From the NCBI GenBank assembly GCA_016933055.1, contig JAFGBS010000009.1:385590-449589 (forward strand): a DNA stretch of 64,000 nt, read 5' to 3'. Source of the stretch: Promethearchaeota archaeon (GTDB taxonomy: Archaea > Asgardarchaeota > Lokiarchaeia > Sigyniarchaeales > Promethearchaeaceae). Shown piece by piece: positions 3,440-43,572 of this stretch. The notes beneath the pieces are model-generated. The model searched no databases and had not been told where the DNA came from. It was given only the letters and a program-made list of their open reading frames with translations. Both the position numbers and the translations under genes were made by a program. Within the stretch, counting starts at the first letter, position 1. Each line of letters starts with the position of its first letter.

Positions 3440-4243
3440 TCAAGATTTTTTATACTCAGGATTCTGGTAGGCTGCCAGATCTTTGAACACATTCATAAAT
3501 AAGCATTCCTCTCTGGGCATTAGCATCTCCTCTGTCATTATCTTTCGATCGGTAAATGTAACAGGTGCTCCTCGAATAAGAACAATTGGAACTTGTTCAT
3601 TTGCTTCCCCCATCAACAATTCTGCTGCACTCACTAAATCATCTGCAACGGCACGGGTGGTGATCTCGAGAGGGCGCCCGAACAAATCCTTTTTGCCTCG
3701 ACTATCATCAATTGGTTCCATACCAGCCACTGCAATAGCAACCCCAATAACTCCTCGTTTCATAGGTTGCACTCGGGAATCAGCTATGATCACTCCTAAC
3801 TGATTTATACCCGTCTTCTCTTTGATTTCAGAGTGCAAATTGAATACGGTTTCGTGCAAATTTTCTGGGAATAGTTTTATCTTAGTGAATCCTCCCGAAT
3901 TAGACCTATCCGCACCTGCATTTGCTATTAAGATCCCTTCTTTTTGAGTTAATAGAACGGTCTTTACACCCCCAAGAATTACATCGGCTTCGTCTAAGAC
4001 AATTTGAACTACCCGTGGGTCCATAGTGTATTTCTCCGCTAACTCACTTGCCTTTTCGCTAATCTCTTTTACATCATTAAGGTCTACAATCCGATTTTGA
4101 ACAGTTCCTACTACTGTTTCTGCAAAAACGAGGATGTCTTTTTCTTTTAAAGAAAGATTAGCGTTTATAATTGAATCTAAAGTAATTTTTACTAAGTCAT
4201 TTTTAGGATAAATAATCGGAGTACTAATAGGATGTAATTCCAT
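3440..4243 (-). CDS. cofE: Coenzyme F420-0:L-glutamate ligase
   Basis: CofE adds glutamates to F420-0 with GTP, completing the deazaflavin cofactor F420 in the cytoplasm. Family motifs are visible along the length: DILVFAETVVGTVQ near the N-terminus, ANAGADRSN (about residue 110), the IIADSRVQPMKRG segment (about 155) and GKKDLFGRPL (about 182). ATG 4243 is chosen (267 residues) over an in-frame TTG two codons upstream. With the MtdB-like and Hdr-like genes elsewhere in the window it indicates F420-dependent redox chemistry. No other F420 biosynthesis gene is adjacent. Confidence 0.92.
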   Translation of the reverse strand: MELHPISTPIIYPKNDLVKITLDSIINANLSLKEKDILVFAETVVGTVQNRIVDLNDVKEISEKASELAEKYTMDPRVVQIVLDEADVILGGVKTVLLTQKEGILIANAGADRSNSGGFTKIKLFPENLHETVFNLHSEIKEKTGINQLGVIIADSRVQPMKRGVIGVAIAVAGMEPIDDSRGKKDLFGRPLEITTRAVADDLVSAAELLMGEANEQVPIVLIRGAPVTFTDRKIMTEEMLMPREECLFMNVFKDLAAYQNPEYKKS

Positions 4244-4346
4244 AAACAAGTATCAGAGTGGATGGTATTTTTTCTTCTCTTTTTTATTATCTAGATATTA
4301 GTACAATAATATCTAGGTATATCGGAAGGGGTGTGAAATTATGGTT

Positions 4347-5270: not shown

Positions 5271-6551
5271 TTACGGATTGATTGTATGAAGCGACTTAAC
5301 CTCACGGCTTTTCATCAACACGTCAGAAATCAAAGTGGCGATCTTATCTAACTCCAATTGTTGTCCTTTTAATTTATTTACTAATAACTGGAGCTGTTTT
5401 TCAGTACCAATGAGAATAACCTTCTGATTTTTTTCATATTTTTGATTTTCAGTCGTTACTACATTTTTATGAATTGCAACGTCTCCACCACGCGCCAAGA
5501 GCTCCTGCTTTAAAACTAAAGCTTGAGGGGCGGTGATATTTTCTAGTAGGATTAATTTCGTGATCATTTTGGTATCCATGATACGAGCGCCAGCGGGGGT
5601 GACCCCCATTCTTCGTAAATAATACCGAGCTTCAATCGGTTCGCGAATGCATGATATAAATTCTGCCGTAATTCCATCTAATTCAGAAACGAGCGGATTT
5701 TTCCTAATAGCATATGCCATTGTAACCATCTCTTGTAATTCATCCGTAACGTCATGGGTGCGAATAATATGTGCCCCATTATAGACTGCAATCGTTGTCG
5801 CAGCTAGCGTTCCAATCAACCGATCTTCCGGATCTTTTTTATCCAATACCGAGCCTATAAAGGACTTTCTAGAAATTCCAACTAAAATGGGCTGGAGGAA
5901 TACCCGAAATCGTTCTAGATCATCAATAATCGACAAATCATACTCGAAGGTTTTTTCAGGTACCCATTTGCCAATTCCAGGATCGATAATTAATTTATTC
6001 ATATCATAATTTTTCTGTTCTAAAGTCTGTATACTCTCGAACAAGGATTCGAGAATCGAATCTACGGATAATAAATCTCCTGGTCTTTTATGTGACGCCA
6101 TTAAAATTAAAGGGATATCATGGTCAATAATGGTGTCAATCATATGTGGATCAATCTTCAATCCAGAGACATCGTTAATGATAACTCTCAAATTTTCTTG
6201 TTGCAGTTGAGTTATGCAATATTTTGCTATATCAGAATATTGGGTATCAACTGAAATAATGATATCTTTTGGTAAAGACTCACATAATGTAGAGATATAA
6301 GGTTTCAATCGTTCTAATTCTTCCTCTCGAGTAATAGATATCACGCCAGGTGCTGTAGATCGGGATCCGACATCTAATATCTTCACACCCTTTTTCAAAA
6401 AGTCTTTAACAACACCATTAAAAATATCTGGTTGGATAACACTTCCCTTGTAAAAACTTTCTGGAGACAGATTAAGAATACCTTGAAATAATGGGGGTGT
6501 TTGATCACCGATGAAGAAATCGGGGAAAATATCTCGATGAATTATAACCAT
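5271..6551 (-). CDS. Dihydropteroate synthase-like protein with C-terminal extension
   Basis: The first 275 or so residues form a DHPS TIM barrel. Visible motifs are GILNLSPESF, ILDVGSRSTAPG, IISVDTQ, INDVSG, LIIDPGIG and LVGISRKSFIG. DHPS joins a pterin pyrophosphate to an aminobenzoate. In archaea with methanopterin the substrate may be a ribofuranosyl-aminobenzene instead. About 140 extra residues follow. They resemble a domain attached to some bacterial DHPS proteins (MGV.P.G..IM..K segment, then LKQE.LARGGDVAIH). The gene is divergent from gyrB across 268 bp. The exact pterin substrate cannot be decided from sequence. Confidence 0.82.
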   Translation of the reverse strand: MVIIHRDIFPDFFIGDQTPPLFQGILNLSPESFYKGSVIQPDIFNGVVKDFLKKGVKILDVGSRSTAPGVISITREEELERLKPYISTLCESLPKDIIISVDTQYSDIAKYCITQLQQENLRVIINDVSGLKIDPHMIDTIIDHDIPLILMASHKRPGDLLSVDSILESLFESIQTLEQKNYDMNKLIIDPGIGKWVPEKTFEYDLSIIDDLERFRVFLQPILVGISRKSFIGSVLDKKDPEDRLIGTLAATTIAVYNGAHIIRTHDVTDELQEMVTMAYAIRKNPLVSELDGITAEFISCIREPIEARYYLRRMGVTPAGARIMDTKMITKLILLENITAPQALVLKQELLARGGDVAIHKNVVTTENQKYEKNQKVILIGTEKQLQLLVNKLKGQQLELDKIATLISDVLMKSREVKSLHTINP

Positions 6552-6819: not shown

Positions 6820-8994
6820 ATGAATACCATGGAAAACTCGAAGGAAACTCCACAATACAAAACCGTTCCAATAAAAAGAAGTTATGATGCATCTGATATT
6901 ATTATCCTCAAGGGATTGGAAGGAATTCGGAAGCGTCCAGCCATGTACATCGGTAGTACTGGGAAGGATGGATGGCATCACTTGCTCTGGGAAGTTGTTG
7001 ACAATTCAATCGATGAGATCATGGCAGGAGGTTGTAATTCTATCAATGTCTCTTTAAATAAGGAAGGTAGTATCACAATTGAGGATAACGGTCGTGGGAT
7101 TCCTATCGAAATACATAAAGAATACAACCGCCCCACATTAGAAGTTATCGTAACAAATCTACATGCGGGAGGAAAATTTAAAAAAGATAGTTACAAAATC
7201 TCGGGAGGTCTTCATGGAGTTGGGCTTTCCGTGGTTGCTGCGTTATCTGAATGGATGTACGTAGAGGTATTTCGTGATGGAAAATACAGTGTACAAAAAT
7301 TTGGAAAAGGAAATACCTTATCCAATTTATTAACTCGTCCTGTCGAGGAATACCAAGAAACTTCTGCTTTTAGGCGTGCTGAGAGACTTAATCTCACAAA
7401 ACGGAATTTTGGAATGGGATCCCAACATAAGAAAAATGGAGAAGGAAAAGTACACAAAAACGGTGACGGTAACGGAAATGGAGAAGAAGAAGACATTAAT
7501 TTTCAGTTTGAACTTGGAATAGAAAATAATTACCATGGAACGAGAATCACTTTTATTCCGGACATTACTATTTTTCCCTCAATGATTGAGGAAGAACAGG
7601 TATTCGATTTTGATTTGATAAACACCAGATTGAGAGAATTAGCTTACCTTAATCCTGATGTTGAAATCCAAATTTATGATGAAATAACTAAAAAATATAA
7701 TGATCACCATTATGAAGGTGGAACAAGCGAGTTTGTATCTTACCTTAATAGCGGGAATAAAGTGTTGTTTGATGAACCTATCTCTATTCACAAGACTGAA
7801 GATGAAGTAGACGTAGAGATTGCAATACAATATAATTACACATATTTAGAGCATATCATCTCTTTTGTAAATAATGTGAGTACACCTGAAGGAGGAACTC
7901 ACGTAACTGGATTTAAATCTTCATTAACTCGAACCATAAATCAGTATTTAACAAAATACCCCAGTAAAAAACTCAAAGACCATAATTTTTCGGGAACGGA
8001 CGTGAGGGAAGGATTGACTGCAATCATTAACGTAAAAGTCCCAGAACCGCAATTTGAAGGTCAAACTAAATCAAAACTAGGCAATATGGAAGTTCAAGGA
8101 ATTGTTAGTAGTGTAGTTACAGAAATGTTGGGGAAATTCCTCGAAGAAAATCCTGGTACGTCGAAATTAATTCTTGATAAATGCTTATTAGCTCAAAAAG
8201 CACGCATTGCATCGAAAAATGCACGTGATCTCACACGAAGAAAATCTGCATTGGACTCTGGTCGTCTTCCGGGAAAATTGGCGGATTGCTCCTCTAAAAA
8301 TGCCGAAGATTCTGAACTATTTATTGTTGAGGGTCCAAGTGCCGGGGGATCCGCTAAACAAGGCAGAAACAGGGAAATACAAGCAGTATTACCCTTACGA
8401 GGAAAAATTCTAAACGTCGAAAAAGCACGACCATTAAAAATCACCGAAAACGCTGAAATTCGTTCATTAATTTTAGCAATCGGAACTGGAATTTATACCA
8501 GTGAGGATTCTGGATTTGACATTGATAATCTACGATATCATAAGATCATCATTATGTGTGATGCTGACATCGATGGGGCTCATATCAAAACTCTACTTTT
8601 GACTTTTTTCTTCCGCTATATGCGACCTCTTATTGAAAATGATAACCTCTATGTCGCGGTACCACCTCTTTATCTCGTTTCGTATAAAAAAACAAAGAAA
8701 TATATTTATGATGATAAAGGGCTCAGTCCGTATTTAGATGAACTAAGAGAGCAATACAATTTAGAAGATAACGAGAGTATTAAGATTCAAAGGTTCAAAG
8801 GTTTAGGAGAGATGAATCCTGAAGAACTATGGGAAACTACTATGGATCCTGAGAACCGTACACTCATCAAGATAGGATTTAATGATTTCACTGAAACCCA
8901 TCAATTATTTAATACCCTAATGGGGGAGGAAGTTTTTCCACGGAAAAAATTCATCATGGACCATTACAAAAATGTTCAAAATCTGGACATATAA
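6820..8994 (+). CDS. gyrB: DNA gyrase subunit B
   Basis: GyrB is the ATPase subunit of the A2B2 gyrase that introduces negative supercoils. GHKL ATPase motifs are present: DNSIDE (residue 61), DNGRGIPI (about 92) and GGLHGVGLS (about 129). The TOPRIM part has EGPSAGGSA, PLRGKILNVEKA and the DADIDGAHI metal-binding motif, and RFKGLGEMN ends the core. A low-complexity Lys/Asn/Gly/Glu insertion at about residues 201-225 sits between the ATPase and transducer parts and is not typical of the family. The ATG at 6820 is kept; a second in-frame Met lies 3 codons later. gyrA follows after 18 nt, so the two are cotranscribed. Confidence 0.97.
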   Translation: MNTMENSKETPQYKTVPIKRSYDASDIIILKGLEGIRKRPAMYIGSTGKDGWHHLLWEVVDNSIDEIMAGGCNSINVSLNKEGSITIEDNGRGIPIEIHKEYNRPTLEVIVTNLHAGGKFKKDSYKISGGLHGVGLSVVAALSEWMYVEVFRDGKYSVQKFGKGNTLSNLLTRPVEEYQETSAFRRAERLNLTKRNFGMGSQHKKNGEGKVHKNGDGNGNGEEEDINFQFELGIENNYHGTRITFIPDITIFPSMIEEEQVFDFDLINTRLRELAYLNPDVEIQIYDEITKKYNDHHYEGGTSEFVSYLNSGNKVLFDEPISIHKTEDEVDVEIAIQYNYTYLEHIISFVNNVSTPEGGTHVTGFKSSLTRTINQYLTKYPSKKLKDHNFSGTDVREGLTAIINVKVPEPQFEGQTKSKLGNMEVQGIVSSVVTEMLGKFLEENPGTSKLILDKCLLAQKARIASKNARDLTRRKSALDSGRLPGKLADCSSKNAEDSELFIVEGPSAGGSAKQGRNREIQAVLPLRGKILNVEKARPLKITENAEIRSLILAIGTGIYTSEDSGFDIDNLRYHKIIIMCDADIDGAHIKTLLLTFFFRYMRPLIENDNLYVAVPPLYLVSYKKTKKYIYDDKGLSPYLDELREQYNLEDNESIKIQRFKGLGEMNPEELWETTMDPENRTLIKIGFNDFTETHQLFNTLMGEEVFPRKKFIMDHYKNVQNLDI

Positions 8995-8995
8995 T

Positions 8996-9000
8996 GAGGT
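8996..9000 (+). promoter_or_regulatory. Ribosome binding site of gyrA
   Basis: GAGGT lies just after the gyrB stop codon and 12 nt before the gyrA ATG. It supports translation of gyrA from 9013 on a shared message. Confidence 0.45.
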
Positions 9001-9012
9001 TAGGTTGATAAT

Positions 9013-12000
9013 ATGACGGAAATTGAAGAAGAAACATCCAAAAAACAAAGAAGTTCTGTAAGGGCTGAATCCATAAATACCCAGATGACACAGTCGTATC
9101 TAGATTACGCTTATTCTGTAATTATTGGTCGTGCGATTCCTGATGTTCGGGACGGTTTAAAACCTGTCCAGAGACGTATAGTGTATTCAATGTACACTAA
9201 TAAATTCACACATACTAATCCTTATCGAAAATGTGCCCGAATCGTGGGTGATGTGTTAGGAAAATACCATCCCCATGGAGACGCTTCCGTATATGATTCT
9301 TTGGTTCGTATGGCCCAAGATTTTTCGTTGCGATATCCATTAATCGATGGTCAAGGTAATTTTGGTTCCATAGACGGGGATCCGCCAGCTGCAATGCGAT
9401 ACTGTATAACAGGTGACTCACTGATTCTTACTGAAAATGGTATTATTCCCATCAAAGAGCTAACAGATTTAACCGATAATAAAACATCTCATTCAGATAA
9501 AGAAAATGGCTATGAGGAGGATATAGACATTGAGATTTTATCAACAGGGAACACCAACAAAGCAAGCAAATTTTTTGATTCTGGAAGTCATGATATAATT
9601 CAAGTTAATACAAATCTTGGTTATTCTATTAAGGGATCAAAGAATCATCCAATTCTATGTTGGGCTCCAGATATTAATGGAAAACCCACTACAATCTGGA
9701 AAACACTAGAAACGCTTTCAATGGATGATGTCGTAGTACTTAACAGAAAAGGATTATTCACCAAACAAAATTATGATACAAAACCTCATATTCCCGAAAT
9801 ATCTGAAAATAGGCGTAGAGTTGAATTTCCAGAAGAAATTACTGAAGAATTAGCCTTTTCTCTAGGAGCTCTTATTGCTGAGGGCAGTGTTTCAGATACA
9901 GAACAGCAAAGACTCTCATTTAACAATAAAGATCACAAATATTACGAAAAAGTCAAAAATGGATTACTAAATTCATTTCCAGGACTTACTGTGAACGAAA
10001 GAGAAGAATATAATGGATGGAAAGAGTTTTCTCTTCATGTGAGAGATGTTCTTGATTTTCTTTATAGCATAGGACTTACTCCAGTCAAATCAGATAAGAA
10101 AGAGATACCATTCTCAGTTTTACGCTCAAGTAAACCAGTTATAGCATCATTTTTAAAAGCATTGTTTGAAGGTGATGGGTCAATTCAAATAAATACAGAT
10201 GCGAGACAGAGAGAGAAAACATCCAATCTAACCTACACATCAAAAAGCGTTAAATTACTTAATCAGTTAAAGAATGTTCTACTTAGTTTTGGAATAACCA
10301 CGAGTCATCTTGTTTCAGATCCAAGAAATGATGTATTCAGAATTGTAATTCTTGGTTTAGAATCCAAGAGGAAATTCTTTGATGAAATCGGTTTCTTTTC
10401 ATCAAGAAAAGCTGAAAGATTTAGAAAAAATAATGAAATAAATACTACTAGACTTAGCAAGACAGACTTTATTCCTTATCTAACTGAATATTTTAGAAAT
10501 AAATACAATAATCGATTTGATGAATTCTTTCAAAAACAGAATATTGATCGATATAACTCACTTCATAGGAAAATTAATCACATTCGTACTTTAGTAGAAA
10601 ATAATGATGCATTGTATCTTAATCAAATATTAGAAGATAATTACTTATATCAGGGAATTTCATCAATTAATCAACTTCCAAAGGAACATGTTTACTCAAT
10701 TCGTGTTGATTCAGATTGCCATTCGTTCACAGCAAATGGTTTCATAAATCATAACACAGAAGCTCGATTGGATGTTATAGCCAGTGAGCTAATTGCTGAC
10801 ATAGAAAAAGATACAGTGGGATTTGTACCTAATTTTGATGAATCTTTGAAAGAACCGGTATTCATGCCTTCAAAAATTCCGAACCTTATGATTAATGGTG
10901 CGAGTGGAATTGCAGTAGGCATGAGTACGAATATGCCTCCCTATAATCTTCGGGAGGTGGTACAAGGGATTATCGCAGTGATTGATAATCCCTACATGTA
11001 TCCGGAAGAATTATCCAAATACATAAAAGGTCCGGATTTTCCAACTAAAGGCATTATTATGGGTCGAAAAGGTATTCGAAACATAATAAATATGGGTAGA
11101 GGGAAAATTACCGTTCGAGGAAGGGTGGAAATTGAAGAAAAATGTATGATCATAACGGAAATCCCTTATCAAGTAAATAAATTGAGACTAGTAGAGAATA
11201 TCGCACGATTAATCAATCATAAAAAAATTCGGGGTGTTTCGGATCTACGGGACGAATCTAACCGAGAAGGAATACGTATCGTATTAGATTTGACTAGGGA
11301 TGCCGATCCGAATGCTATAAAGTATCAATTATTCAGCATGACGCGATTGCAATCCTCTTATAGTATTCTCAATCGGGTACTTGTTGATAATAATGGTTTA
11401 CAGCCTGCAATTTTAAACATAATGGCCTTAATCAAGGCTCACATAGACAATCGAGAACAAATCATCATACGTAGAACCCAATATGATTTAGATCAAGCAA
11501 AAAAAAGACTGCATATTGCTGATGGGTTGTTAATTGCAATCCAAAATATCGACGAAGTAATACAAGTCATTAAAAAATCATCCGATACAACTGACGCACG
11601 GCAAGCCTTGATGACCACCTTTTCCTTAACGGAGATACAAACAGATGCGATTTTAGAAATGCCACTCCGACGATTAACAAGTTTACAGACAAAAAAACTT
11701 CAAGATGAAAAAATAACCATCATAGAGAATATTCAGTTATGTGAGCAGATCCTAACAGATAAAAAAATGCGAATGACTATTATCAAAGAAGAATTGCACG
11801 AAATTGATAAAAAATATGGTGATGATCGTCTAACCGAGATTGAAGATGCACCAGAAGAGGCAGATGACCCTGAAGAAGAACAACTTAAGGTTATCCCTGA
11901 AGAAACTTGTGTAATAATTCTTACGGAGAATCAGTACATCAAGCGTATGACACTAAAGACATATCAAGCGCAAAATCGTGGGGGGAAAGGCAAAAAAGGT

Positions 12001-12930
12001 ATTAATAAGCGTGAAGAAGATATCATTCGCGATGTGTACGTTGTTTCCAGTCATGATAAAGTATTATTATTTACGAAGATGGGTCGTGTATATTCTAAAT
12101 ACGCTTATGAAATTCCTTTAATGAGTCGTACTTCTCGCGGAAAAGCCTTTGTAAATTTTGTGGGATTAAAACCGGACGAACAGATTGTACACATAGTTCC
12201 CGTTGCAGATTTTTTCCAAGAGGATTTTCTGATATTCGTAACCAAGCGAGGAATGGTGAAAAGGACAAATATTCGAGAATTCAAGAATATTCGCAAAACT
12301 GGTATATTGGCCATAAATTTACGCGAGAATGATGAATTGGTCAATGTGAAATTATCTGAAGAGGATTATTATATTTTAATCGCTACTGAAAATGGATACG
12401 CTATTAAATTTTCGGATTTAGAAGTTCGTCCTTTAAGTAGGAAAGCGATGGGGGTTGTAGGGATTCGGTTACGCGAAGAAGATAGCGTTGTAGATATGGT
12501 CATTGGAGATAATGAAACAGATGTAATTACAATTACTAAAAATGGTTATGGAAAACGCTCAAAAGTGGAACTCTATCGGGAAACTCGTCGAGGAGGAAAA
12601 GGCGTAATTAATATTAAATTCCATGATCCGGATGACTGTGTAACGGCAATAAAAGCAGCTACCGATGAAGATTTGTTAATTGCTACTACCAATGGAATTC
12701 TCATCCGTGTACCATCCCTGAGTTTGCGCTCACTCAGTAGAAGTGCAAAAGGAGTAAAAGTAATTGAACTAAATGAAGATGATTTTGTTTCCAGTGTTGC
12801 CCTTTGTGAGCATGCTTATGAAGATTATGAGGGAGATCTAGAGGACCAAAACAATGAATCTGAAGAAGATGAAGAATCTGACGAAGAATCTGATGAAGCA
12901 AACGAAGGGGCGCCACAAACAGAGAAATAA
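9013..12930 (+). CDS. gyrA: DNA gyrase subunit A containing an intein
   Basis: GyrA is the DNA-cleaving subunit of gyrase. The 1305-residue precursor contains a 451-residue intein at residues 131-581; removing it leaves about 854 residues, a normal GyrA length. The N-extein carries RPALPDV-like and GKYHPHGD motifs and ends at catalytic Tyr130 (AAMRY). The C-extein resumes with TEARLD. The C-terminal DNA-wrapping domain has a GyrA box near residue 987 ([10 protein letters not shown]), which marks a true supercoiling gyrase rather than topoisomerase IV. A very acidic tail (about residues 1275-1300) follows the beta-propeller. No activity is possible until splicing restores the Tyr-Thr junction. 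Confidence 0.97.
9403..10755 (+). other. GyrA intein with LAGLIDADG homing endonuclease
   Basis: In-frame protein intron within gyrA. It starts at Cys131 (block A CITGDSLI) and has a block-B-like GSKNHPILC. It ends with block F (HSFTANGF) and the terminal His-Asn pair; Thr582 is the +1 nucleophile. All splicing residues look intact. Two LAGLIDADG-type helices lie about 100 residues apart: LGALIAEGS (residue 284) and LFEGDGS (residue 384). Both keep an acidic residue, so the endonuclease may be active. The site, between the catalytic Tyr and the following Thr, is the one known from mycobacterial GyrA inteins. Arginine codons here are mostly AGA/AGG, whereas the flanking exteins mostly use CGN. 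Confidence 0.95.
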
Positions 12931-13176: not shown

Positions 13177-13797
13177 ATGCCATCTAGACGCGGGGATAAT
13201 TCATTAGTCTTCAAGATCGTCTTTTATGGTCCAACTATGGGAGGAAAAACAACCGCTCTTGAATGGATCTATAAGAAAGAGGGTCTAGCAAGCGGTAAAT
13301 TGCAGAGCATCGCCGATCCGACTGGAAGAACACTTTTTTTTGATCGCGTTGTTGCGCGCGTATCAAACGTAGTTTTCCAATGTTTTACTGTAGCTGGCCA
13401 ACGACGTCATAAATACCAAAGGAAGACTGTGATCAAGGGTGCCGACGCCATTATATTCGTTTGGGACTCTAGCCCTGATATGTGGGAAGAAAACATCTGG
13501 AGCTTCAAGGAGCTGATGCAATTCTATGGTCCAAAGTTGCTACCAGGTGAAGACGGACAGAGCGAAATTCCGTTAGTTATGTGCGCCAACAAGCGAGATT
13601 TACCAAATGTTACACCAGTCGATAAAGTAAAAGAAGTCTTAACCAAAGCTGGGTTAGGAAATACCTTAATTTATGAAACCATAGCAATTACTGGAGTTAA
13701 TGTCAAACGAGCGTTTGTTTATGGGGCACGGGAAGCCGTTCTGAAGCACTATTTGAAACTCAAAGGCTCGGGATCGGAACAAGCCACTGCATACTAA
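13177..13797 (+). CDS. MglA/Arf-like small GTPase
   Basis: Small Ras-superfamily GTPase of 206 residues. G1 is GPTMGGKTT (residues 18-26), a switch-I-like DPTGRTLFFD follows, G3 is TVAGQ, and G4 is NKRDLP (about 138-143). The GRTLFFD segment and the T.AGQ form of G3, where Asp is replaced, are characteristic of the MglA branch. That branch controls polarity in bacteria and is expanded in Asgard archaea. No lipid-attachment cysteine is seen at the C-terminus. No GAP or roadblock partner is adjacent. It converges on nagB, and the intervening stretch is T-rich. Confidence 0.88.
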   Translation: MPSRRGDNSLVFKIVFYGPTMGGKTTALEWIYKKEGLASGKLQSIADPTGRTLFFDRVVARVSNVVFQCFTVAGQRRHKYQRKTVIKGADAIIFVWDSSPDMWEENIWSFKELMQFYGPKLLPGEDGQSEIPLVMCANKRDLPNVTPVDKVKEVLTKAGLGNTLIYETIAITGVNVKRAFVYGAREAVLKHYLKLKGSGSEQATAY

Positions 13798-20734: not shown

Positions 20735-22423
20735 TTGATTCAGACGAGTTTAGAATTTAGTCGAATAGATGGAAAAAATGTCCACTTTTTTTTAATCGAA
20801 CCAGAATATCCCATAGAATTTGAGTTCAATTCTGTTAATGAAACAAAATTGCACTATCCATGGAGAAATGGAGTTGATTCCCCCTACATAGCCCAACTGG
20901 AGCAAAATCTTAAGAAAGTTCGAAAAAAGACTCCAGCGACATTACTATTTATGGAAAGAGGAACTTCCCCACATCCTGATTTTCAACACGTAAGTATTGA
21001 AAATCTTGCATATACTATTGGAATACCCTTTAGATATATTGATCTACCAACAGATCTGATGGAAACTCAATTTTTAAGTTTAAAAAGACAATTGGACTAT
21101 ATTCAAAAATTGGAGAGTAAACGATCATCATTTCAAAATAAGGAAGGATATGAGGTTGAGGTCAGAAATTTAGATGCGTTAATTTTAGATGCTCGAGATT
21201 CTTTGAAGAAAGATCATTCCGAACTTGTTGGGAACAAGCGCCCACTATGGATTATGTTTCAAATAATAGAGATATTACGTCAATGGGATTCCAAAGAAAT
21301 AAGCTGTATTCTCATTATTTCCAAAATAATGCACAAGGCAATATTAAAGATTGCAAATCAATTAGAATTGCAAACTGATCAATATTGTTTGTATCGAGAC
21401 GTAATAGAATCTGTGGATGTATCAAATTTTACGAACGCCATTGAAAATAAGGATTTAATTCAGTATTCTCTTAAAAAAGAGAAAAAAAAGCAAGATAAAA
21501 AATACTTACTCTATATGGTCGATACAGATCCAATTGCAACACCTTATGATATTACTATGGCTTATGATGCAGGATATGACGCAGTGATCCATTTTGAAGA
21601 TGTAAAACCAGAAGAAACCACCGGTTTAATACAAGATCTTGTGTTTTCTCGCAGAAATAATAAATATACTACACTGTTTTTAAACGGAAGGCATGAGAAT
21701 GTGTTTTTTGAAGTATTAGACCGGGTCAAAAAATCAATGTTTGGTCCCTTTAAGGTATCTACAGTAATCGATCCCCGGGGAGCATGTTCAGGAGCGGGTG
21801 CTGCAGTTGCACTTATTGAAGATCTGGTATATACACGAAGATTAGGAAAAATTGAGAATAAGTCAGTGGTAGTATTTGGTGGAACGGGACCTTTCGGACA
21901 CCTAATAGCGACATTGTTGTACAAAGATGGATGCGACGTATGTATTGTAGAAACATGGAATCAACGAGACAAGAAATTTTTAAAGGAATTTCTAGATTAT
22001 ACGAAAAAAACCTATAATGTACGTCTTACAGGTGCACTTGCTTTTGATGAGGAATCGAAACTTCATCTTGCTCAAAATGCTGATGTTATTATCTCAACTG
22101 CTGCTCCTGGAATTCAAATTCTGGATAAAAATATCATGCAACAAATTCCTAAAGGAAAACTAGCGATTGATACCAATATGGTCATACCAGCAGGTATTGA
22201 AGGTATTTCAGAGGACATGGATGGGCAAGAGATTTATCCAGGAATTTTTGCAATTGGTGCATTGACTATCGGGGCTCTTAAATACAAAGTAGAAATGAAA
22301 ATGTTGAAAGACGCGAAAAATGCAAAATCAGGATTTTTTGACTTATATTACGCAGTAAAAGCAGCAAAAAGAATCTTGAATTTACCCGAGAAGAAAAAAA
22401 GATTAGATGAACGCTTAAAATAA
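20735..22423 (+). CDS. MtdB-like methylene-H4MPT dehydrogenase fused to an unknown N-terminal domain (paralogue 1)
   Basis: Residues 255-555 match MtdA/MtdB-type NAD(P)-dependent methylene-tetrahydromethanopterin dehydrogenase: YMVDTDPIATPYD, YDAGYDAV, VIDPRG, then a Rossmann GGTGPFG and late IGALTIGALK. The end of the second Rossmann strand is VETWNQ; an acidic Glu there predicts NAD over NADP. The first 240 or so residues are an extra domain not found in MtdB. It has FMERGTSPHP and a Lys-rich linker, and I do not recognise it. The start is TTG 20735 directly after AAAGAGG; there is no in-frame ATG nearby. Paralogue 2 follows after 2 nt. Confidence 0.82.
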   Translation: MIQTSLEFSRIDGKNVHFFLIEPEYPIEFEFNSVNETKLHYPWRNGVDSPYIAQLEQNLKKVRKKTPATLLFMERGTSPHPDFQHVSIENLAYTIGIPFRYIDLPTDLMETQFLSLKRQLDYIQKLESKRSSFQNKEGYEVEVRNLDALILDARDSLKKDHSELVGNKRPLWIMFQIIEILRQWDSKEISCILIISKIMHKAILKIANQLELQTDQYCLYRDVIESVDVSNFTNAIENKDLIQYSLKKEKKKQDKKYLLYMVDTDPIATPYDITMAYDAGYDAVIHFEDVKPEETTGLIQDLVFSRRNNKYTTLFLNGRHENVFFEVLDRVKKSMFGPFKVSTVIDPRGACSGAGAAVALIEDLVYTRRLGKIENKSVVVFGGTGPFGHLIATLLYKDGCDVCIVETWNQRDKKFLKEFLDYTKKTYNVRLTGALAFDEESKLHLAQNADVIISTAAPGIQILDKNIMQQIPKGKLAIDTNMVIPAGIEGISEDMDGQEIYPGIFAIGALTIGALKYKVEMKMLKDAKNAKSGFFDLYYAVKAAKRILNLPEKKKRLDERLK

Positions 22424-22425
22424 GG

Positions 22426-23433
22426 GTGGGCTTCTTGCAAATCGACGAAAATATATATAAAAAAGTGATGTTACAGAATAATTTGAATAATTGTTCCGAA
22501 ACAATCCTCAAAATAAAGGATAAACGCAAAAAATATCTGCTGTTTATGATAGATACGGATCCTAAAGCTTCCCCCTTTGACATCAATATGGCATATGAAT
22601 CAGGTTACGATATGTGTGTGCATTTTGCAGGTTTGACCCCTGAACAAGCTATGGGATTTATGTTAGATCTCTATTATGCGCGTTCAGAAAAAAACCATAA
22701 ATATACAACGATGTTTCTGAACGGAAAAGATTTTGATAAAGTGTATGATGCATTCCATAAGGCGAAAATTGCAATGGGAGGAGATATACGGATTCCCTTA
22801 GTGATCGATCCAAGAGGAGCTGCAACGACTGCAGCCTCCTTAGTCGCAAAAATGAAAAATGTCTTTTTACAAAAAGGGGAACAACTAAAAAATCAAAAAA
22901 TTACGATTCTCGGAGGTACAGGTCCCGTGGGACGTATTGCAGGTGCTTTATGCAATAGAGAAGGGGCAGATACATATATAATTGAAACTTGGGATCAACG
23001 TAATCAAGAATGGCTTGATAATTTCATCCATAAATTCAATCAAGAATATGATGTGGCACTGAAAAGTTTGTTATTGACTAATGAAACAAAACGCTTGGAG
23101 CACTGTATGGATACAGACTTGATCATATCTTGTGGTGCAGCCGGTATTGAATTACTTGGTACAAATTCGATGGAAATTCTTTCTCAGAAAGCTCCAGGAA
23201 AGCAATGTGTAGATATCAATTTGGTTCCCCCTCCCGGTATTAATGGGATTAAACCAGATTCAGATGGAGGAGAAATTTTTCCCGGTATTTACGGATATGG
23301 TCCATTAAATATCGGACAAATTAAATTTCAAACGGAAATCGCGATTTTAGAAGAAGCTCGAAAAGCGGAATATGGTATTTTTGATTTTAATCGAGCCTAT
23401 GAAATAGCAAAAAAAATGATAAAAATAGATTAA
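22426..23433 (+). CDS. MtdB-like methylene-H4MPT dehydrogenase (paralogue 2)
   Basis: Catalyses, by family, oxidation of methylene-H4MPT to methenyl-H4MPT with a nicotinamide cofactor. After an N-terminal tail of about 35 residues come FMIDTDPKASPFD, AYESGYD, VIDPRGAATTAASLVA, the Rossmann GGTGPVG and YGPLNIGQIK. The residues after the second Rossmann strand are IETWDQ, so NAD is the likelier cofactor, as in paralogue 1. The GTG at 22426 lies just after the TAA of the upstream gene. A TTG at 22435 or ATG near 22468 are alternatives. It converges on paralogue 3, with stops 17 nt apart. Confidence 0.87.
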   Translation: MGFLQIDENIYKKVMLQNNLNNCSETILKIKDKRKKYLLFMIDTDPKASPFDINMAYESGYDMCVHFAGLTPEQAMGFMLDLYYARSEKNHKYTTMFLNGKDFDKVYDAFHKAKIAMGGDIRIPLVIDPRGAATTAASLVAKMKNVFLQKGEQLKNQKITILGGTGPVGRIAGALCNREGADTYIIETWDQRNQEWLDNFIHKFNQEYDVALKSLLLTNETKRLEHCMDTDLIISCGAAGIELLGTNSMEILSQKAPGKQCVDINLVPPPGINGIKPDSDGGEIFPGIYGYGPLNIGQIKFQTEIAILEEARKAEYGIFDFNRAYEIAKKMIKID

Positions 23434-23449
23434 ATCGGATTTCCTTGTC

Positions 23450-24370
23450 TTACTCCTTCGATTTTTTCTTATTTTTTTTTCTTTCAATAATTTCTTTCGC
23501 AAAATCATAATATTCAAGGAAAGAAAAAATTTCAAAACCCGATGCATCCATCATTTCTTGCAGAACCGTTTTTTCTACTTTTAATTTAACCTGACCAGTA
23601 GAGAGTGCACCAAAAATATAAGAATTCTCATATTCTACTCCCTTCCACATAGGTTCGATTCCCTCTATACCCAACGGAGGTACGGCATTTGCATCTGCAT
23701 AGATTTTATTTTCAGGAATTTTTTGTAAAGTAGTCGCTGAAATCAGTTGTACACCAGGGGCACCACATGTGAATACAAGATTTTTGTCTTCGCATAATTC
23801 CACTCGATGTATTTCATCTCCCATGGCTTCGGGTTTAATATCCACTCGATACGTCATATTCAATTCATTTGCTGCTCTTTCTGCTCTTTCTTGCGAACGG
23901 GATAATAGAGTTGTTTCTGCTCCTCCTTTAGCGCACAATACCGATACAGTCTGTCCTACCATGCCTGTTCCTGCAAAGATAATCACTTTGCAGTCTTTAA
24001 GGGATTTTTTTTCTATTAGGTGGAGATAAGCTTCTACTTGAGCAACCAAAGTGGCTCCCGTTGTATATCCTCCTCTTGGATCAATGCAAGTAGTCAATTC
24101 AAAACCTGGTATCATACTTTCTCTTGCAATGTCTAAAATTCTCTTTAGTTGGGCGTGATTTGACCCATTTAAAAAGATTTTTGTATTTTTTGCCCCCTTT
24201 TCGCCTCTGGAAAACATAGCATCTTCAATTATTCGCACTATATTCCATTCATTAATCCCTCCCATTGGGACAACAATATCATATCCCGCATCATATGCAA
24301 CATTGATGTCGAACGGAGAGGGTAATGGATCTGTATCTAAGAGGTACAGAATCATTTTTTTATCAGACAT
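23450..24370 (-). CDS. mtdB: MtdB-like methylene-H4MPT dehydrogenase (paralogue 3)
   Basis: This copy is closest in length (306 residues) and motif pattern to characterised MtdB. It has YLLDTDPLPSPFD, YDAGYDIVVPMGG, DAMFSRGEKG, CIDPRGGYTTGATLVA, AGTGMVG, CGAPG and FGALSTGQVK. Unlike paralogues 1 and 2, the second Rossmann strand ends LLSRSQER, where Ser and Arg could hold the 2'-phosphate of NADP. It is therefore the likely NADP-linked enzyme. Its opposite orientation means it can be regulated separately from the other pair. A Lys-rich tail ends the protein. The exact C1 carrier (H4MPT or H4F) is not provable from sequence. Confidence 0.9.
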   Translation of the reverse strand: MSDKKMILYLLDTDPLPSPFDINVAYDAGYDIVVPMGGINEWNIVRIIEDAMFSRGEKGAKNTKIFLNGSNHAQLKRILDIARESMIPGFELTTCIDPRGGYTTGATLVAQVEAYLHLIEKKSLKDCKVIIFAGTGMVGQTVSVLCAKGGAETTLLSRSQERAERAANELNMTYRVDIKPEAMGDEIHRVELCEDKNLVFTCGAPGVQLISATTLQKIPENKIYADANAVPPLGIEGIEPMWKGVEYENSYIFGALSTGQVKLKVEKTVLQEMMDASGFEIFSFLEYYDFAKEIIERKKNKKKSKE

Positions 24371-30616: not shown

Positions 30617-31957
30617 TTATTTGGGCCAGACTTTTTTGAAGGCAGTTTTAGGGAAAAAACAGTATGGACAATGATCTGGAGGCTCTTCTCCATAATGTAC
30701 ATAGCCACAGATCCTACATCTCCACGCAGTTTGCTCTTTCATTCCCTCACGTGCAGCCTGTTCTGCATTGTCTGCTTTTAGCCTTGGGAGTTCATCCAAT
30801 GGAGGCATAACCGGTTTCATCTTAGATAAGTAGCGATACACTACCAACCTTTGAACTTCTGATGTCCCTTCATATATAGTTAATACCCGAATGTCTCGCA
30901 GTAATTTCTCAATGGGATAAAATCTAGTATAACCATACCCGCCAAAAATCTGCAACGCATCATTGAGAACTTGTTGAGCGACTTCAGTAGTGTAAAATTT
31001 CGTGATTGACGCTGATAAGGTATTATCCATGCCTCGATCAGCCTCCCATGCAGATTTCCAGATCATGAGGCGTGAGGCTTCGATTTTTTGATACATTTCT
31101 GCTATTTTGAACTGAATCGCTTGAAATTCCGATAGTTTCATCGTAAAAGCTCTTCTTTTATTTGCATAATCCATAGCGAATTCCATAGCAGATCTGGCAG
31201 CACCAACTGCAAAAGAACCAATAATGGGTCTAGTTGATGAAAATGTTTTCATTGCTAATAAAAATCCTGTACCTGGAATTGCAATCACGTTTTTTGCAGG
31301 AACATGCACATTATCGAAATGCACCGCCGTTGTACTAGATACTCTTTGACCAAGTTTTGGTATATGCTCCCCCACTGTTATTCCATCCCAATCCATCTCC
31401 ACAAAGAAAGCACATAAACCTTTATGTCGTAATTTCGGATCTACAGTAGCAAAGATACTAGCATAATCTGCATATCCACCATTCGTCACCCAATATTTCG
31501 TTCCGTTTAAGATGTAGTCTTCACCATTTTTTTCCGCCTTGCAACGAATACCCGCAACATCCGATCCCATACCGGGTTCACTTGTTGCAAAAGACACAAT
31601 CTTAGGTTCTCTCACACAAGCAGAAAGATACTTTTCTTTCGCCCCCTCATTTCCTGATAAGATCAAAGGTTCTTGTCCAAGGGAATTACCAAATATTGAT
31701 GTTCCCATTGCAGGACATGCTGCAGCAACCTCTTCTACAACTATTGATGCATCTAATAAATTATAGCCATGACCGCCATACTCTTTTGGAATACCCAAAT
31801 TATTCAATCCAGCAGCATGTGCTTTTTGTAATAAGAATTTTGGTGGAACGTCCATCTCATCGAAATAATTCACAACGGGGAGAATTTCATCTAAAGCAAA
31901 TTTACGAGCTTTCTTTTGAAGTTTTTTTTGTTCTAAGGAAAGTGTGAAATCTATCAT
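30617..31957 (-). CDS. Acyl-CoA dehydrogenase with C-terminal rubredoxin domain
   Basis: Residues 1-385 are a complete acyl-CoA dehydrogenase: SEPGMGSD and YWVTNGGYAD flavin-side motifs, RRAFTMKLSEFQ, LQIFGGYGYTR, and IYEGTSEVQ with the catalytic Glu. It would oxidise acyl-CoA using FAD. Residues 405-446 add a rubredoxin-like iron site, CRICGY and CPYC. The fusion suggests that reducing equivalents leave through iron to rubredoxin-linked acceptors rather than through electron-transfer flavoprotein. Chain length of the substrate is not predictable. The ATG is at 31957. Confidence 0.92.
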   Translation of the reverse strand: MIDFTLSLEQKKLQKKARKFALDEILPVVNYFDEMDVPPKFLLQKAHAAGLNNLGIPKEYGGHGYNLLDASIVVEEVAAACPAMGTSIFGNSLGQEPLILSGNEGAKEKYLSACVREPKIVSFATSEPGMGSDVAGIRCKAEKNGEDYILNGTKYWVTNGGYADYASIFATVDPKLRHKGLCAFFVEMDWDGITVGEHIPKLGQRVSSTTAVHFDNVHVPAKNVIAIPGTGFLLAMKTFSSTRPIIGSFAVGAARSAMEFAMDYANKRRAFTMKLSEFQAIQFKIAEMYQKIEASRLMIWKSAWEADRGMDNTLSASITKFYTTEVAQQVLNDALQIFGGYGYTRFYPIEKLLRDIRVLTIYEGTSEVQRLVVYRYLSKMKPVMPPLDELPRLKADNAEQAAREGMKEQTAWRCRICGYVHYGEEPPDHCPYCFFPKTAFKKVWPK

Positions 31958-42612: not shown

Positions 42613-43572
42613 TTAATAGCGAGTTTTTAATTTCTGGAAATCCTCCTTTATCTGTGTGGTAAAATCATTCCATTCTTTCATTAAGAGATTCATACCATTA
42701 ATACTCTTCCCGCGTTCCTTATATTCTACATATCGCATCAATTCTGATAATTGTCTAAAATCATTATCCATGGGTAAAATCAAACGTTCCATATCTTTTC
42801 GTTGACTTTCGATAACCGATTCAATACGTGAAATTTCTCCCTTCTTAACCAATGTCTTGATATAGGCTTCAGTTCCTGTATAAATCTCTGTTACTTTTGC
42901 CTTTTGTTGTTCCATATTTTCTTTTGTGAATTGTACAAGATCACCAGTTGGTAATAATCGTGTTACATCTCCCACAAAGTTTTTCGCCTCTTCAATAAAT
43001 TCTGGAGTAATTGAGACATCTTGTATCTCAAAATCCACCTCTACATATGAAGCTTGAGTCCCTTTACTCGGATCTTTTAATCGAAATATTTTAAATCCGA
43101 CGTCATTTTTTAGAGGGATTTCAGGATCTCCTTTTCGCAGTGCAATTTCTACCTGACGAAGTAAGCGTACATGATTGAACACTATCCCAAAAGCATACGG
43201 ATTATTAGTCTGAAAGCCTAATTGATTACGGATATCATCGGAACTGAACATTACTTTTATTCCTGGATGGGAATGAAACCATCCTACAATGAATTGGGGC
43301 GGATCCCGGGTATAAGCATCTTCTTCGATCAGTGCAGCATCTACATAATCGGGATTATCATAACTCACTTTCAATAGGAATTGTTTTTGCATCGTATGAG
43401 TAATCGGATAAGCTTCGGTGATTATGATGTTCTTGTGCTTATCGATATATCCTATTAATATCCCATAAATCTCTCCCCATTCTTCCTCTGGGATGCGTGC
43501 ATTTGCGAATCTAACACACGATGCTAGAATAAGACGGTAAATTGCGCGGTTTAAAATCACTTTTCCTGCCAT
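42613..43572 (-). CDS. JAMM/MPN+ metalloprotease (Rpn11/CSN5-like)
   Basis: The MPN+ zinc site is complete: Glu34 in GEIYGILIG, His100-x-His102 in GWFHSHP, Ser110 and Asp113, fitting HxH-x7-S-x2-D. These residues define active deubiquitinases such as Rpn11 and CSN5, and related Asgard proteins act in ubiquitin-like pathways. The C-terminal half (about 180-319) is helical coiled-coil, as in eukaryotic MPN proteins. No ubiquitin, E1 or E2 gene is in this window, so the substrate is open. It is the first gene of a probable pair with phnN. Confidence 0.9.
   Translation of the reverse strand: MAGKVILNRAIYRLILASCVRFANARIPEEEWGEIYGILIGYIDKHKNIIITEAYPITHTMQKQFLLKVSYDNPDYVDAALIEEDAYTRDPPQFIVGWFHSHPGIKVMFSSDDIRNQLGFQTNNPYAFGIVFNHVRLLRQVEIALRKGDPEIPLKNDVGFKIFRLKDPSKGTQASYVEVDFEIQDVSITPEFIEEAKNFVGDVTRLLPTGDLVQFTKENMEQQKAKVTEIYTGTEAYIKTLVKKGEISRIESVIESQRKDMERLILPMDNDFRQLSELMRYVEYKERGKSINGMNLLMKEWNDFTTQIKEDFQKLKTRY

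Follow-up and report, generated by a model that had tools for sequence, protein, structure and literature searches.

The window, a 64,000-nucleotide stretch of a Lokiarchaeal genome, carries three neighbouring genes of MtdA/MtdB type (copies 1–3), which we read, with a probability of about 0.6, as the methylene-tetrahydromethanopterin (methylene-H4MPT) dehydrogenase step of the Lokiarchaeal Wood–Ljungdahl/C1 pathway, served by MtdA/MtdB-type NAD(P) enzymes instead of F420-dependent Mtd, with copy 2 using NAD(H) and copy 3 using NADP(H). F420-dependent Mtd is the carrier step that archaeal pathway maps normally show. In the proposed mechanism, copy 2, together with copy 1 if it is active, would pass hydride to and from NAD(H), and copy 3 would do so with NADP(H). 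The methylene/methenyl-H4MPT couple would thereby be tied to both nucleotide pools, with NAD+ favouring C1 oxidation and NADPH favouring the reduction of methenyl-H4MPT. The link of the Wood–Ljungdahl pathway to electron carriers in Asgard archaea is central to syntrophy models of the origin of eukaryotes. Our search of the open-access literature found no paper naming MtdB in Lokiarchaeota.

An ORF check confirms the layout proposed in an earlier sequence-only reading of this DNA, namely three MtdB-like genes of which two are cotranscribed and the third is convergent, together with their positions and strands (Table 1). The stop codon of copy 1 and the GTG start codon of copy 2 are 2 bp apart, and the stops of the convergent copies 2 and 3 are separated by 16 bp. 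Pairwise identity is only 39% between copies 1 and 2, 32% between copies 1 and 3, and 35% between copies 2 and 3. Therefore, the three genes are old paralogues.

Table 1 Coordinates of the three MtdA/MtdB-type genes and their features in the window
Feature	Position	Strand	Description	Evidence
Copy 1	20735..22423	+	562 aa; unnamed N-terminal domain fused to ETW (NAD-type) MtdA/MtdB dehydrogenase domain	ORF, Mpt_N, MtdA match, model
N-terminal domain of copy 1 (aa 1-252)	20735..21490	+	alpha/beta with long helical hairpin; no Pfam family; at best distantly TraB-like	
MtdA/MtdB domain of copy 1 (aa 256-551)	21500..22387	+		Pfam, MtdA match, model
S352-G353 of copy 1	21788..21793	+	in place of near-invariant T101-T102 (MtdA numbering)	alignment
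E406 of copy 1	21950..21952	+	NAD-type acidic residue closing Rossmann strand 2	model
Copy 2	22426..23433	+	335 aa; ETW (NAD-type) MtdA/MtdB-family dehydrogenase	
E187 of copy 2	22984..22986	+	acidic residue ending strand 2	
Copy 3	23450..24370	-	306 aa; MtdA/MtdB-family dehydrogenase of SR (NADP) type; transcribed towards copies 1 and 2	
S157-R158 of copy 3	23897..23902	-	in line with MtdA G151-R152	alignment

On every sequence test, except for three altered near-invariant residues in copy 1, the copies classify as members of the MtdA/MtdB family. The Pfam domain Mpt_N (PF09176) is matched with 77.8, 52.3, and 74.1 bits by copies 1, 2, and 3, respectively, against a curated cut-off of 27 bits, and Methylorubrum extorquens MtdA (PDB 6tlk/6tge/1lu9) is matched with E-values of 9e-33, 6e-32, and 4e-46. 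The whole genome assembly (3.76 Mb, 91% complete) yields no PF09176 matches beyond these three, which all lie within the window. The structure model of copy 1 has a mean pLDDT of 86, with most of the MtdB region at 90–97, and its MtdB part superimposes on 6tlk with a target-normalised TM-score of 0.92. The MtdA-like two-domain fold with a C-terminal Rossmann domain is thus seen in the model for copy 1; for copies 2 and 3, it is indicated by full-length sequence alignment only. Conservation was scored across ~115 relatives. In MtdA numbering, residues D19, R53, G67, D95, G98, G228, G248, G253, and K256 are invariant in the family and kept in all three copies, as are D220 and N222, which are 99% conserved.

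The copies differ at the end of the second Rossmann strand. In copy 3, L-S-R-S aligns gap-free with C-G-R-K of MtdA; copies 1 and 2 read E-T-W there and carry a 4-residue insertion relative to MtdA. In particular, E406 of copy 1 lies in CIVETW, E187 of copy 2 in YIIETW, and S157-R158 of copy 3 in LLSRSQER, and in the structure model strand 401-406 ends with E406. The alignment and the copy 1 model therefore bear out the strand ends that had been assigned from the letters. In Rossmann folds, NAD is favoured by a Glu closing strand 2, and NADP by a small residue followed by Arg. The acidic, NAD-type mark closes strand 2 in copies 1 and 2, not in copy 3, and the small residue plus Arg, the NADP-specific mark of MtdA, closes it in copy 3, not in copies 1 and 2. 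The split between ETW and SR motifs most plausibly separates NAD-type from NADP-type copies, a reading that is well supported as a pattern and moderately supported as a function; MtdA (NADP) is the alignment's single calibrator with a known cofactor. The bacterial MtdB enzymes that have been characterised reportedly accept both NAD and NADP, and the motif may therefore shift the preference rather than fix it.

The split recurs in relatives. Both ETW and SR types are present in every genome that has at least two typed copies (15/15, the window genome counted). An MtdA/MtdB tree computed with the motif columns removed places copies 1 and 2 with the related genome G001 and copy 3 with the SR copy of the related genome G002, each with support of 100/99. 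A tree that joins the ETW copies of the window to those of the other Lokiarchaeota and Helarchaeota can be rejected (AU p 0.0004), as can the corresponding grouping for SR (AU p 0.001). The window paralogues are thus ruled out as orthologues of the main Lokiarchaeal ETW and SR clades, indicating that the split arose at least twice. A single lineage-specific radiation of the window-family copies is compatible with the data (AU p 0.21). Bacterial relatives from NC10, Acidobacteria, and Gammaproteobacteria nest inside the tree.

The sequence-only reading knew of no described organism with such a local triplet, but another Lokiarchaeal genome, G024 (JAFGOA01), also has one, with SR, ETW, and ET copies on the same strand. 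A third independent split in G024 is unsupported; joining its copies to the main clades was not rejected.

Gene neighbourhoods in relatives follow the motif. NfnA and FrhB-NfnB fusion genes adjoin 9/24 SR copies versus 0/43 ETW copies (Fisher 3e-5), whereas HdrA-type genes lie within 3.5 kb of 27/43 ETW copies versus 3/24 SR copies (p 9e-5), in counts over genomes that share ancestry and hence are not phylogenetically independent. Both arrangements occur on one contig of G026, with the SR copy beside Nfn and the ETW copy beside HdrA-MvhGA. Nfn enzymes act on NADP(H). The adjoining Nfn genes therefore lend independent support to SR as the NADP type. Copies 1–3 of the window have neither an Nfn nor an Hdr neighbourhood alongside; such contexts belong to other families. 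At L038:2748-5531 (- strand), beside an NADP-type MtdB, a 928-aa FrhB-NfnB fusion adjoins NfnA, and this arrangement suggests that FrhB-NfnB and NfnA form one complex joining F420, ferredoxin, and NADP(H). At L081:1887-4430 (- strand), an HdrA-MvhD fusion with an N-terminal DUF7347 domain adjoins the MvhG and MvhA genes.

The NAD/NADP split predicted by the sequence-only reading is thus supported by motif position, recurrence, and gene context; we infer cofactor use from these. Recurrence, gene context, and the structure model also rule out the motif as chance or misreading. It is plausible that one cell can couple the methylene step to both cofactors. Alternatively, all copies may be promiscuous NAD(P) enzymes with no useful cofactor difference, duplicated for dosage or for condition-specific expression. 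The motif reading is indeed anchored by a single characterised enzyme, and copies 1 and 2 lie on the opposite strand from copy 3 and hence on a separate transcript. However, the split is recurrent, with at least two origins, and tracks gene context, and the ETW loop also bears the 4-residue insertion, so we consider this alternative unlikely.

Copy 1 alone among the three departs from the family at T101S, T102G, and P225I, positions that are 95–99% conserved in relatives; T101, T102, and P225 are all intact in copies 2 and 3. The sequence-only reading had named the loss of pterin-binding residues from copies 1 and 2 as evidence against itself, and such a loss is seen in part in copy 1, through these three changes, with copy 2 intact. 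Because near-invariant residues are altered, it is doubtful that copy 1 is active as a dehydrogenase, and its substrate may have changed or the enzyme may be weakened. A tentative possibility that we take seriously is that copy 1 is no longer a dehydrogenase but a degenerate partner, the fused protein regulating or scaffolding copy 2 or another C1 enzyme. In accordance, its counterpart in the congener G001 has the same S-G change, so that the change is fixed, as well as Ala at the P225 position, and copy 1 is cotranscribed with a complete copy 2. Against this, copy 1 retains the ETW motif, the K256 equivalent, and all family-invariant residues, and its MtdB domain is 85% identical to the G001 counterpart, indicating constraint. 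A degenerate copy 1 concerns that copy only and is therefore compatible with the assignment of copies 2 and 3 to NAD(H) and NADP(H).

The altered T101/T102 loop of copy 1 lies outside the Rossmann motif, as would be expected if the copies were divided by pterin carrier (H4MPT versus H4F), instead of or besides nucleotide. Bacterial MtdA works with either H4F or H4MPT (PMC9012536). Nevertheless, T101, T102, and P225 are kept in copies 2 and 3 alike, a FolD homologue is already there for H4F, and H4MPT-type Mch and Ftr are encoded, making a division by pterin carrier improbable.

The MtdB part of copy 1 starts only near residue 255 and is preceded by an N-terminal domain of ~250 aa. This domain (residues 1-252) matches no Pfam family, and the model of its homologue L055 (pLDDT 88.5) matches no fold in the PDB. 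A glutaredoxin match (E 0.012) looked like chance and was rejected. There is a weak profile similarity to TraB (PF01963; 63% over the C-terminal half, 0.6% for an unrelated control) with no Pfam TraB match, and we treat TraB kinship as a lead only. Fusion of the domain to MtdB is seen in the majority of Asgard long forms as well as in Bathyarchaeota, and several Lokiarchaeal genomes encode it separately, as a gene of ~243 aa immediately before an MtdB of ~335 aa. Because relatives either fuse it to MtdB or encode it just upstream, the domain probably serves interaction or regulation. Its profile has one match in the window genome, copy 1, and among relatives the domain is nearly limited to MtdB-bearing genomes (64 versus 65 of 117). 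A shorter homologue of ~209 aa with no Pfam family, exemplified by L084:4878-5504 (+ strand), often lies directly upstream of the domain in relatives.

The window genome encodes Mch, Ftr, an MTHFR-family protein, CdhD (CODH/ACS), FolD, and an F420 ligase. No match to F420-dependent Mtd (PF01993) was found anywhere in this genome (G000); completeness of only 91% could make this absence a gap, yet G001 and G002 also lack a match. The same search gave no match in G012 and G024, and found Mtd in 89/117 relatives. Within the family of the window genome, Mch and MtdB occur together in G000-G002, and neither occurs in G003-G007. Since Mtd is undetected though Mch, Ftr, CODH/ACS, and the F420 ligase are present, MtdB-type enzymes probably replace it at the methylene-H4MPT step in the window genome and its two MtdB-bearing family members. 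F420-Mtd is undetected in both genomes with a local triplet, the window genome and G024. The window genome also encodes a homologue of NfnB (61% identity), through which electrons could pass between the pools of NADH and NADPH and ferredoxin.

Despite the undetected F420-Mtd, F420 is probably still made: the window encodes F420-0:gamma-glutamyl ligase (CofE, PF01996, 224 bits) at 3440-4249 (- strand), and loss of F420 itself is therefore unsupported. Near CofE, at 5271-6551 (- strand), lies a gene for a 426-aa pterin-binding (PF00809) protein, which could serve pterin biosynthesis or be a methyltransferase gene.

A broader picture, which we offer as speculative and think unlikely, casts archaeal MtdB as the C1 terminus of an assembly for electron transfer. 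The NAD-type and NADP-type forms of MtdB would be docked by the N-terminal domain to HdrA/Mvh-like and Nfn-FrhB complexes, respectively, so that two parallel branches, each specific for one nucleotide, would couple C1 oxidation to ferredoxin, F420, or H2; the Lokiarchaeal family would have dropped F420-Mtd and would live on the paired NAD and NADP enzymes. With a recurrent NAD/NADP split of MtdB, a co-inherited domain, and replacement of F420-Mtd in one lineage, electron flow becomes testable with a few purified proteins.

Other genes of the window include a bacterial-type DNA gyrase B and A pair (6820-12930, + strand), here in an archaeon, whose 1305-aa GyrA carries a LAGLIDADG-domain intein, and an acyl-CoA dehydrogenase with a C-terminal rubredoxin-like domain fused to it (30617-31957, - strand). 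Two proteins are of eukaryotic-signature types common in Asgard archaea: an Arf/Ras-like small GTPase (13177-13797, + strand) and a JAB/MPN-domain protein (42613-43572, - strand).

Among known systems, the three copies share with the NADP-dependent MtdA of M. extorquens (PDB 1lu9, 6tge, 6tlk, 6tm3) the fold, the PF09176 N-terminal domain, and the invariant residues including K256, and copy 3 also shares the small-residue/Arg motif. They differ from it in having about one third identity, in the Glu-Thr-Trp motif and 4-residue insertion of copies 1 and 2, in the extra domain of copy 1, and in their archaeal H4MPT Wood–Ljungdahl setting. MtdB of bacterial methylotrophs, an NAD(P)-dependent methylene-H4MPT dehydrogenase, belongs to the same Pfam family and presumably catalyses the same reaction, but the bacterial loci found here have neither such an N-terminal domain nor a local set split by cofactor motif. 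FolD (PF02882) carries out NAD(P)-dependent methylene-pterin oxidation on H4F; it is of a different family and is encoded by a separate gene on contig C27. F420-dependent Mtd (PF01993) comes from an unrelated family but catalyses the methylene-H4MPT reaction of methanogens and of most Lokiarchaeal relatives.
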